A stretch of 64,000 nucleotides of DNA, taken from an uncultured Prevotella sp. GTDB taxonomy: Bacteria; Bacteroidota; Bacteroidia; Bacteroidales; Bacteroidaceae. Of the stretch, positions 4,428 through 42,134 are shown piece by piece. The notes beneath the pieces are model-generated. The model worked only from the letters and a program-made list of their open reading frames with translations, was not told the origin of the DNA and made no database searches. The DNA lies in contig CALUHC010000019.1 in NCBI GenBank assembly GCA_944320355.1, forward strand, positions 1-64,000, in the 5' to 3' direction. The position numbers and the translations under genes are program-made. Position 1 is the first letter of the stretch. Each line of letters begins with the position of its first letter.

Positions 4428-4663
4428 CTAATTTTATTCCGAAGAGTGAAGCCATCGGTGATTTTTTAGAAGCTGCGACACCATATTATAATATGCGCAA
4501 GGCGACAGACAGCGCCTCCCGCCACGACGCGCAACGCCGCCACAAGGCACTGCCGAAACCCAGCTCCGCGCCACAAGCGCTGCCCCTCGCCACGCCGGCA
4601 AAGGCCGTGCGGGATGGTCGCTGGCCACCGGCTACGCAACCTTCTGACTGTCAGGAGGTTGCA

Positions 4664-4742
4664 AAACGGGTCGTTTTGGCTTCCAAAACGACCCGTTTCA
4701 GACGATGAAACGTGCCGTTTCGGGGCGCGAAACGGCACGTTC
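4664..4742. repeat. 22-bp-phased palindrome array, copy A
   Basis: Four 13-bp units of form AAACG-N3-CGTTT begin at 4664, 4686, 4708 and 4730, exactly 22 bases apart. Their central triplets are GGT, ACC, TGC and GCA, so neighbours 1-2 and 3-4 are complementary and can fold as two long hairpins. The last unit ends CGTTC. A CTGACTGTCAG palindrome lies about 20 bases to the left (4644-4654). The array lies between the unknown gene at 4813-5712 and the MATE gene. The rest of the 4428-4812 gap holds a 10-bp perfect stem (4762-4771 with 4783-4792) just past the upstream gene and nothing else I recognise. Confidence 0.9.
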
Positions 4743-4812
4743 CGCAAAACGGTTCGGCACGGGCCGCCCTGCGGAGGCGCGACAGGGCGGCCGCCTACAC
4801 GGCCAAAGGGCA

Positions 4813-11074: not shown

Positions 11075-11231
11075 AAAAATTTTTGCCCAACAAAAATGCG
11101 CTAAAAAATTGAACGCAGGGGGCGGAGGGCCACCCGACGGCGGTGCATCGACTTTGTTTTATGCCCACAAGCCGCGTTTTATGCTACAACAGGCACGTTT
11201 TTGCCCTCCGGAACGGTCGCCGCCGATTGCA

Positions 11232-11310
11232 AAACGGCACGTTTGGCGATGCGAAACGACCCATATCGCAGTGCGAAACGTGCCGTTTTGCAAGGCGAAA
11301 CGGCACGTTT
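11232..11310. repeat. 22-bp-phased palindrome array, copy B
   Basis: Units begin at 11232, 11254, 11276 and 11298, each 22 bases apart, with centres GCA, ACC, TGC and GCA. The second unit has a decayed right arm (CATAT instead of CGTTT) yet the register is kept. The array sits between the divergent genes ald and xseA. Apart from it, the palindrome at 11059 and the promoters, the gap 10829-11541 shows nothing I recognise. Confidence 0.88.
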
Positions 11311-11508
11311 CACACCACAAAAAGGCGCAAGACATTGCACATTTTTCTTTTTTTACGCCTATTTCTCTGTCACACAGTCACTTAAAATTGCACACGCAAG
11401 AATCGCGTATTTGCGCCCCGATGGCCGTTTCGGCGCAAAAACGGCAGCCACGGAGCTGTTTCCGCAAATTAATATGCAATACGCCGCGCCGTTGCAAATA
11501 ATTATTCG

Positions 11509-17587: not shown

Positions 17588-17804
17588 ACCTTTGATTTTT
17601 GACAAAAAAGCGAAGTCGGAACGGCATTCGCGGCAGTTCGTATAACCATTTGACAATCAATGCCTTGCAAAACATAACGCTTAGACTTCACAAACGGCCC
17701 GTTTCGCGCTCCGAAACGGGTCGTTTTGCAAGGTGAAACGTGCCGTTTCGTCATGCAAAACGGCACGTTTCAGAATACCATACTGCAAACTTTGATTTTT
17801 GATA
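17588..17804. repeat. 22-bp-phased palindrome array, copy C, with both outer boundaries
   Basis: Core units begin at 17692 (centre GCC), 17714 (GGT), 17736 (TGC) and 17758 (GCA); decayed units fall in register at 17670 and 17780. A TTTGATTTTTGA sequence occurs at about 17590 and again at about 17791, bounding the element. The left marker TAACCATTTGACAATCA is at 17643-17659. It fills most of the gap between the DUF2023 gene and mrp (17555-18039); the remaining 17805-18039 shows no gene, only a weak promoter-like AATATTTG at 17997-18004. Confidence 0.88.
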
Positions 17805-18039
17805 CGCCCCGAGCCGCTGCAGAACCACCCGCCGGAAGCAGGGCGACAGAAGCGCTACGCACCCGCAACGGGCGGCAACGCGCAAGCGCAAGACGGCCTT
17901 TCATTGCATCCACACCGCACCGGCCGACGTCACCGAAAGCGCAACGCGAAGAACAGTTTCCGCGCAAAACGCATGGCGCACAGACGCTTTCGGCACAATA
18001 TTTGCTGTGCGTTTTGAACAACACTTATACCGTAAAGAT

Positions 18040-27135: not shown

Positions 27136-27290
27136 CCAACATACTGACTGTCAGATACTTAACCATAAAAACCACGAAACAAGACAGGATTCTGCCCACG
27201 CTTGAATCGCAAAACGGGTCGTTTCGTAATGTGAAACGACCCGTTTCTGCATACGAAAGGGCCTCCATCGCAGCACGAAACGGCACGTTC
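27136..27290. repeat. 22-bp-phased palindrome array, copy D
   Basis: Clear units at 27212 (centre GGT), 27234 (ACC) and 27278 (GCA), with a decayed unit in register at 27256 and possible decayed ones at 27168 and 27190. A CTGACTGTCAG palindrome at 27144-27154 matches the left marker of copy A. It lies between the MBL-like gene and the PL11 lyase. The rest of the gap (to 27613) shows only the palindrome at 27554. Confidence 0.82.
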
Positions 27291-36605: not shown

Positions 36606-36792
36606 GGACTTTGTTTTTTGGCCTACATCACACCGTTGCCGCGCCCGCCTGTAACCATCTGATAATCAGTGGAGTTACAAAACGTGCCGTTTTGGCCTCT
36701 AAAACGTGCCGTTTCACCGCCTGAAACGGCACGTTTCGCAGCGCAAAACGGCACGTTTCGCAAGCCCAAACGGCAGGCTTTGATTTTTGACA
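36606..36792. repeat. 22-bp-phased palindrome array, copy E, with both outer boundaries
   Basis: Units at 36680 (centre TGC), 36702 (TGC), 36724 (GCA) and 36746 (GCA), and a decayed fifth at 36768, all 22 bases apart. Left marker TAACCATCTGATAATCA at 36652-36668; outer left word TTTGTTTTTTGG near 36610; right boundary TTTGATTTTTGA at 36779-36790. The cleanest copy in the window. It lies between the PL11 fusion gene and the two-domain esterase gene. Confidence 0.92.
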
Positions 36793-36828
36793 CACATCGC
36801 GGCGGCACACAGGCTGCCGCTTTTGCCT

Positions 36829-41898: not shown

Positions 41899-42084
41899 GA
41901 ACTTAGATTTTTGCTACGCGCCGAGCCGTCAACGTAGCCTCTGTAAGTCATTGATAATCAACGAGGTTACAAAACGTGCCGTTTTACAGTTTGAAACGGC
42001 ACGTCTTGGCCGATGAAACGGCACGTTTCGGGATGCGAAACGGCACGTTTCGCAAGGCCAAACGGCAGACTGTGATTTTTGATA
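41899..42084. repeat. 22-bp-phased palindrome array, copy F, with both outer boundaries
   Basis: Units at 41972 (centre TGC), 41994 (GCA), 42016 (GCA) and 42038 (GCA), and a decayed fifth at 42060. Left marker near TTGATAATCA (41951-41960); outer left word TTAGATTTTTG near 41902; right boundary TGATTTTTGATA at 42073-42084. Together with the MITE-like element it fills the gap 41555-42134. Confidence 0.92.
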
Positions 42085-42134
42085 CGGCAGCAGGCGGCAT
42101 TCCGGTCGCCTCGACACGGTAGCCGCAAGTGCCG

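Follow-up and report, generated by a model that had tools for sequence, protein, structure and literature searches.

The window analysed here is a 64,000-nucleotide stretch of DNA from an uncultured Prevotella sp. (GenBank assembly GCA_944320355.1, contig CALUHC010000019.1, positions 1 to 64,000 of the forward strand). The locus around position 36,680 holds an intergenic composite made of a left palindrome, an array of 13-bp units and two outer motifs, one on each side and both in the same orientation (Table 1). The units have the form AAACG-N3-CGTTT (AAACGNNNCGTTT), and the strand of this array is able to pair end to end.

Nineteen mismatch-free copies of the unit are present in the whole window, at six loci, against 0.08 expected, and the maximum in 100 shuffles of the window was one; the six loci described by the first-pass annotation are thus real. 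Its count of three or four clear copies per locus is correct elsewhere and generous at 27212, where two units are perfect, one matches at 9/10 and one at 5/10. Every window unit lies on a 22-bp grid with four or five unit positions per locus, decayed ones included, and the decayed units at 11254 (8/10), 41994 (9/10) and 36768 (8/10) keep the register, as had been claimed. The centres in array 1 read GGT/ACC and then TGC/GCA, which makes two complementary pairs. Arrays 2 and 4 were left unoriented. The last 22 kb of the window (42,100-64,000) are array-free and carry large minus-strand genes in a run, with few long gaps.

Table 1. Arrays and associated features in the 64-kb window; fold z, single-stranded DNA fold against shuffled sequence.
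Feature	Coordinates	Strand	Perfect units (locus)	Description	Profile hit	Fold z
Array 1	4664..4742	+	3 (4664)	four units: three perfect, one 9/10		-10.6 (4628-4750)
Left palindrome, array 1	4636..4663	+		GCAACC..TGACTGTCA..GGTTGC
Array 2	11232..11310	+	3 (11232)	four unit positions, second decayed (8/10)	11226-11329	-7.2
Array 3	17670..17770	+	4 (17692)	one decayed and four perfect units	17638-17820	-8.9
Left palindrome-like end, array 3	17643..17669	+
Right outer motif, array 3	17790..17805	+		CTTTGATTTTTGATAC
Array 4	27212..27290	+	2 (27212)	two perfect, one decayed, one 9/10		-5.4
Array 5 (cited locus)	36680..36780	+	4 (36680)	perfect TGC, TGC, GCA, GCA and a decayed fifth	36649-36808 (144.9 bits)	-7.5
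Left palindrome, array 5	36650..36679	+		TGTAACCATCTGATAATCAGTGGAGTTACA
Left outer motif, array 5	36609..36626	+		CTTTGTTTTTTGGCCTAC
Right outer motif, array 5	36778..36793	+		CTTTGATTTTTGACAC; orientation as left motif
Array 6	41972..42050	+	3 (41972)	four units: three perfect, one 9/10	41939-42100	-6.8
Left palindrome, array 6	41942..41971	+		TGTAAGTCATTGATAATCAACGAGGTTACA
Left outer motif, array 6	41902..41917	+		CTTAGATTTTTGCTAC
Right outer motif, array 6	42070..42085	+		CTGTGATTTTTGATAC

The genome to which the window belongs comprises 2.48 Mb in 42 contigs and is 80% complete. It contains 287 adjacent unit pairs at the 22-bp spacing, while the backward control gave none. Within 560,550 bases of this genome the distances between units of up to 120 bp are 22 bp (67 cases), 44 bp (35), 66 bp (20), 76 bp (2) and 33 bp (1), so that 122 of 125 fall on the grid. 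None of the 140 perfect units in the same bases lies inside a called gene, at a coding fraction of 0.76 and with genes called by a simple open-reading-frame and hexamer caller rather than a validated gene finder. Random spacing and equal frequency inside genes, the two outcomes that the first-pass annotation had named as speaking against it, are therefore both absent from these 560,550 bases, and its statements on the strict register and the intergenic location hold well beyond the window. Arrays number 59 in 419 kb and occupy about 55-60% of the long intergenic gaps of the window genome.

The element as a whole is a composite of 80-180 bp. In oriented copies the palindrome TGTAAC-n3-TTGATAATCAA-n3-GTTACA stands directly before the first unit. 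The left ends match WATCARN4TTR, the consensus for integration host factor (IHF), in 26 of 48 oriented arrays of the window genome and in 16 of 26 copies from P. lacticifex, compared with 5 of 2,000 background 35-mers. This resemblance suggests that the left palindrome may be a bend site of the IHF/HU type.

The outer motifs divide the elements into subfamilies. Of the 48 oriented arrays of the window genome, 13 form class A, with a CTTTGATTTTTGAYAC-like motif at either side, and 11 (14 under a looser rule) form class B, whose motifs are different ones and unlike at the two ends; the others make up a remainder. Class B copies such as L110 10453, L112 4748 and L118 493 are flanked by a second set of palindromes, GTTAACATTTTTATGTTAAAG to the left of the array and TAGTTGCATATATGCAAGTA to its right, the former being, to our eye, a little like a Xer arm. 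Copies in P. lacticifex carry direct TGTAAAnATnnTTCA motifs on both sides at a mostly fixed left-right distance of 139 bp, and in the genome G600 the element is uniform and about 404 bp long, as measured on six copies. In P. lacticifex, G600 and class A the outer motifs are direct, not inverted.

Conservation along the element comes in blocks. In P. lacticifex the information content is 1.56 bits in the arms, 1.42 and 1.48 bits in the outer motifs, 0.89 bits in the spacers and only 0.36 bits in the sequence between (the logo uses 27 of 37 rows, the profile and bit scores 26); in class A the arms reach 1.63 bits and the sequence between 0.33 bits. Inert copies would lose information in every block to the same degree as they decayed; this pattern thus points to each copy being under constraint, not to dead copies decaying uniformly, and so to a function.

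The first-pass annotation had the arms constant and the central triplets variable. Both are confirmed, but the centres are not free: those of neighbouring units tend to change in concert, in complementary pairs. The central sevens of units 1 and 2 are fully complementary in 17 of 48 arrays of the window genome (6.9 expected) and in 8 of 20 arrays of the genome G263 (2.0 expected), in both cases beyond all 2,000 shuffles. Mean complementarity is also raised between units 3 and 4 (p 0.0035 and 0.0005, respectively); it is not raised for the pairs 1-3, 1-4 and 2-4 in either genome, and for units 2-3 it is raised in only one of two measures for G263 (3 vs 0.8, p 0.03). In P. lacticifex the pairing is weak, with p values of 0.013 for units 1-5 and 0.033 for units 2-3, uncorrected for the ten unit pairs compared. 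These position-specific tests leave out the unoriented arrays, namely 28 of 76 in the window genome (10 of 47 in an early set), 17 of 37 in G263, 27 of 40 in BRZ_BK and 7 of 16 in BRZ_QA.

A test that takes all arrays regardless of orientation counts those with a neighbour pair complementary at 12 or more of 13 positions. Such pairs occur in 41 of 76 arrays of the window genome (25.9 expected), 23 of 37 in G263 (10.5) and 14 of 40 in BRZ_BK (2.6), while the 6 of 16 found in BRZ_QA do not differ significantly from the 4.3 expected. In this array-by-array test, three of the four genomes thus show neighbours that are complementary beyond chance. Between non-adjacent units, the control, no excess is seen in the window genome and G263; the counts are raised in BRZ_BK (8 vs 1.6) and BRZ_QA (7 vs 3.7, p 0.036). 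Neighbour pairs complementary at 13/13 are formed even by units whose own 5+5 palindrome is imperfect: eight in BRZ_BK (0.41 expected, maximum of 3 in 1,000 shuffles), four in the window genome (0.86 expected) and five in G263 (0.88 expected).

Complementarity that in part exists despite a broken palindrome in the unit itself indicates that the folding unit is the neighbouring pair rather than the single 13-mer, and in many arrays a row of hairpins could form next to the conserved left palindrome. All six window arrays fold better than shuffled sequence as single-stranded DNA under DNA parameters (z -5.4 to -10.6; Table 1). The hairpins suggested earlier are in this respect supported, with the basic unit being more probably two 13-mers paired across a 9-bp spacer. 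Where both units of a pair are self-mismatched, compensation is no more frequent than in shuffled data in the window genome (14 of 42; shuffled 0.40) and in BRZ_BK (21 of 56; 0.39); same-site arm compensation in such pairs reaches 23 of 38 in G263 against 0.45 shuffled, and the test is mixed overall. Template-switch correction of quasi-palindromes could be a source of such complementarity that involves no selection.

Folding of this strength is also what would be seen if the pairs worked in RNA, as hairpins that terminate transcription or shield the 3' ends of mRNA. Between tandem genes the median distance of an array is 119 bp from the upstream stop and 331 bp from the downstream start, and 8 of 47 such arrays are within 60 bp of a stop; this position would also be expected from a transcript-level role and in that measure speaks against the chromosomal role proposed below. 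However, convergent gaps are not enriched: among 72 gaps with arrays 47 are tandem, 15 divergent and 10 convergent, compared with 114, 32 and 27 of 173 background gaps, and divergent gaps are not preferred either. The orientation of the arrays to the genes is not fixed (14, 10, 6 and 3 of 33), and an orientation code relative to genes was rejected on the same 33 arrays. G-T mismatches show no surplus relative to A-C mismatches, so RNA, which the first-pass annotation had offered as one alternative, is not specially favoured. A search of the window in Rfam gave no match, and a role in transcripts gives no reason for the even chromosomal spacing described below. It is considered quite improbable.

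Elements of this type extend beyond the window genome. Of 398 genus genomes, 15 contain the AAACG pair, as does 1 of 201 in a sample of the family. Among the matches listed, the named records with the pair are mostly Prevotella, including P. lacticifex and several rumen metagenome-assembled genomes, together with Marseilla massiliensis, and the single matches in unrelated phyla look like chance. P. lacticifex turns up again, with its pairs at identical positions, in the set of genus genomes. G263 has no AAACG pair at all, and instead shows the same left palindrome followed by AAAGG-N3-CCTTT units on the 22-bp grid. When the letters are ignored (AAASSN3SSTTT-N9-AAASSN3SSTTT), the pair is found in 64 of 158 genus genomes, with at least five copies in 46, and is absent from 94. 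The backward control of this pattern reaches at least five copies in 6 of the 158 genomes and is non-zero in 23, with up to 31 copies, which indicates that some genomes carry other 22-bp repeats too.

Further forms of the unit include AAAGCTTAGCTTT, AAAGCTATGCTTT and AAAGGTCAGCTTT. In G217 the unit AAAGCGTAGGTTT has its exact complement AAACCTACGCTTT as a neighbour, and the elements carry a TGTAAAGATAATTC outer motif like that of P. lacticifex. The layout is genus-wide, and its letters differ by species in the manner of dialects.

Other 22-bp-spaced repeats do occur in the genus: G490 and G531 have 31 and 15 backward-control matches, respectively, and no forward ones, and in G603 (UBA3288) the spacer of the 22-bp arrays is constant (GGAGGCTTC), these arrays being an ordinary minisatellite and not paired units. 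A fixed 26-mer, TGTAACATGTTGATTATCAATGGTTA, recurs in seven genomes (for example G000:C8:202), in some of them near a contig end, and is perhaps part of a multicopy element. A phage origin was rejected, the AAACG pair being present in one viral contig and the AAAGG three-unit pattern in none, as was a plasmid origin, the element at 36645-36800 having no plasmid match.

Arrays are spaced along the chromosome more evenly than the lengths of the available gaps would lead one to expect. A profile trained on 37 arrays of the window genome, with hits less than 50 bp apart merged, finds 76 arrays in 560 kb; it gives no hit in dinucleotide-resampled sequence of any of the five genomes, and its hits in reversed sequence (23 in the window genome, and 4, 7, 1 and 0) all fall on real arrays read backwards. 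Two arrays in one gap were not seen in the genomes scanned. In the window genome 62 intervals have a mean of 6.8 kb and a coefficient of variation (CV) of 0.339; the gap-length-matched null gives 0.793 and never fell below 0.565 in 3,000 draws. Only 1 of the 62 is shorter than 3 kb, where 16.2 would be expected. The CV is 0.546 in G263 (p 0.0047), 0.618 in P. lacticifex (p 0.0067), 0.429 in BRZ_QA (p 0.0033) and 0.567 in BRZ_BK (p 0.0003, rising to 0.027-0.035 when only hits of at least 40 bits are kept). Spacing is too regular in all five genomes (p ≤ 0.007), with mean intervals of 6.8-15 kb. Long gaps were rejected as its cause, as the length-matched null does not reproduce the regularity.

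The regularity first came to notice on contigs selected as rich in pairs. It was found again on contigs C5, C7, C8 and C12 of the window genome (17 arrays, CV 0.21, null 0.8) and in another, previously unused 400 kb of P. lacticifex (24 arrays, CV 0.32, null 0.9). Contig C13 (3,096 bases) and the genome G204 (83 kb, one array) were left out. A blind scan of G488 gave 7 hits in 100 kb, one of which is a different tandem repeat, at intervals of 10.6, 24.3, 10.4, 10.8, 11.4 and 10.0 kb, too few to test. Like the left palindrome, the outer motifs and the dialects, the even spacing had been missed by the first-pass annotation.

Where the regularity fails, array-free islands break it. Taken alone, the first 200 kb of P. 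lacticifex show no regularity (CV 0.95, p 0.69), the cause being a 62-kb gap without arrays. In this gap (C1:157-219 kb) an ISL3 transposase and genes for type I restriction stand among ordinary genes; a second array-free stretch, the 42-kb end at C1:1,000-1,042 kb, has a GC content of 0.43 compared with 0.50 and also an ISL3 transposase. Array-free stretches may mark recently acquired islands. G263 has four intervals below 3 kb, of which three are consecutive, near C16:28-37 kb. Five arrays at C16:28181-40212 follow each other at about 2.8-3.4 kb, and a tandem duplication carrying an array is possible there.

Positions of individual arrays relative to genes recur in some genomes. At a scan threshold of 29 an array lies upstream of gltX in the window genome, G263, BRZ_LE and BRZ_MT (3 of the 10 other genomes in which gltX is present), upstream of dnaA in the window genome, BRZ_BK, BRZ_QA and Marseilla (3 of 9 others; in G263 it is downstream) and upstream of dapB in the window genome and BRZ_QA (1 of 11 others), while with the profile BRZ_BK also has weak hits at gltX and dapB. 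Conservation of position was set aside and is not relied on: orthologous gaps pooled give 5 with an array in both genomes, 2 and 2 with an array in one and 71 with none, and since the gltX gap is counted in three pairs and 55-60% of long gaps are occupied, the concordance may reflect only which gaps are available.

Even spacing together with outer motifs that recur beyond the core can be read in another way. The elements may be a non-autonomous mobile family, moved into intergenic DNA by a putative transposase or recombinase and excluding one another, sites only a few kb from a copy already present being avoided, in which case the spacing would be the footprint of target immunity and not a function. 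The outer motifs shared within subfamilies (the CTTTGATTTTTGAYAC-like ones of class A, those of class B and TGTAAAnATnnTTCA in P. lacticifex) point to past copying as mobile DNA, as does the uniform element of G600. Gain or loss between relatives is seen at the queE-queD gap, which is 490 bp long with an array in the window genome and about 90 bp long and empty in BRZ_QA. Against this, conservation is in blocks and not uniform as in decaying copies, and the ends are direct rather than inverted repeats. The spacing is also even across subfamilies A, B and C together, so that exclusion would have to act through the core. Mobilisation by a REP-associated tyrosine transposase was rejected as a general mechanism: the Y1_Tnp domain (PF01797, RAYT) is not found in the window genome (80% complete) and is present in only 6 of 14 other array-rich genomes. 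Target-site duplications were looked for in empty and filled gaps, which are too diverged to place the junction. A mobile family is the main rival to a role in chromosome organisation, and is thought unlikely.

A signal for DNA uptake or recombination, spread evenly by molecular drive (an explanation also put forward for Haemophilus and Neisseria uptake sequences), would likewise combine even spacing with dialects, the latter following a changing receptor. Both features are typical of uptake sequences, which show lineage dialects, and the array-free gaps of P. lacticifex look like islands, with their ISL3 transposases, type I restriction genes and low GC. But uptake sequences are single motifs of about 10 bp that often lie in genes, while the Prevotella elements are composites of 80-180 bp with 0 of 140 units in genes. 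In Haemophilus, uptake sequences are reported to be evenly spaced, and 65% of them are in genes in H. influenzae (PMC1939737). An uptake or recombination signal is accordingly an improbable reading.

No element of this design was found in the open-access journal literature searched, in agreement with the first-pass annotation, which knew of none. The nearest working model is the bacterial interspersed mosaic element (BIME), built of opposed palindromic units in intergenic regions. Binding of gyrase, IHF or HU and insulation of supercoils are features of BIMEs; on this point the arrays show the IHF-consensus match of their left ends. Arrays share with BIMEs and REPs the intergenic location, the hairpin-capable palindromic units in opposed pairs (neighbours complementary in three of four genomes) and the presence of hundreds of copies per genome, and differ in the strict 22-bp register, the species dialects and the even spacing. 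BIMEs are reported to impede supercoil diffusion and may divide up the E. coli chromosome (PMC6907758). REPs bear a GTAG or CGTC tag at one end (PMC3733652); inspection by eye of 47 arrays of the window genome, where units begin with AAACG and end with CGTTT, revealed no constant GTAG or CGTC.

Also from Bacteroidales is the BrickBuilt MITE of Porphyromonas gingivalis. It is always intergenic, and in it a leader and a tail enclose a short-period array of 23-nt direct repeats without spacers; it has IS5-type terminal inverted repeats and 19 copies (PMC4596501). The Prevotella elements resemble it in the intergenic, short-period array, and differ in the 22-bp register, the 13-bp units alternating as complementary pairs, the variable 9-bp spacers and the even spacing. 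Their ends are direct in P. lacticifex, G600 and class A and unlike one another in class B, where a MITE has terminal inverted repeats.

The matS sites bound by MatP are 13-bp palindromes of the same 5+3+5 design and act in chromosome organisation; they are single and confined to the terminus region, whereas the Prevotella sites form arrays along the contigs sampled. A CRISPR array was rejected, as the 13-bp units differ and alternate in orientation, the spacers have 9 bp and there are 59 arrays in 419 kb.

Taken together, these results lead to a tentative proposal, to which a probability of roughly 0.4 is given: the arrays would be one family of evenly spaced intergenic elements acting as BIME-like architectural stations. 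Each station would present its left palindrome and then four or five 13-bp units on the 22-bp grid, with neighbours tending to be complementary, and these pairs would fold or be bound in the cell. It might be bound by a putative nucleoid-type protein, or be extruded as paired hairpins beside the bend site, and so anchor or insulate the chromosome at intervals of 7 to 15 kb. The effect would be topological, and the regular spacing would be what matters and what is selected.

A bolder form of the station proposal, which seems rather doubtful, is that of a built-in ruler. Genus-wide double-hairpin stations, one per 7-15 kb, would be read by a putative clade-specific DNA-binding factor, and they would represent a chromosome-domain system with selection acting on the spacing itself. 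The target letters would have drifted into dialects while the 22-bp register, the complementary neighbours, the bend-type left end and the spacing were retained.

Interspersed palindromic repeats were first described decades ago, and what part they play in organising chromosomes is still debated. In contrast to the arrays described here, the long-range placement of REPs in P. fluorescens SBW25 is random, with neighbour distances above 200 bp reported not to deviate from chance (PMC3116915). A repeat class with even spacing, conserved geometry and changing letters makes a role in chromosome organisation directly testable. To our knowledge, little is established about the nucleoid structure of gut and rumen Bacteroidales. 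If the station proposal is true, the elements would provide a handle on chromosome architecture in these bacteria.
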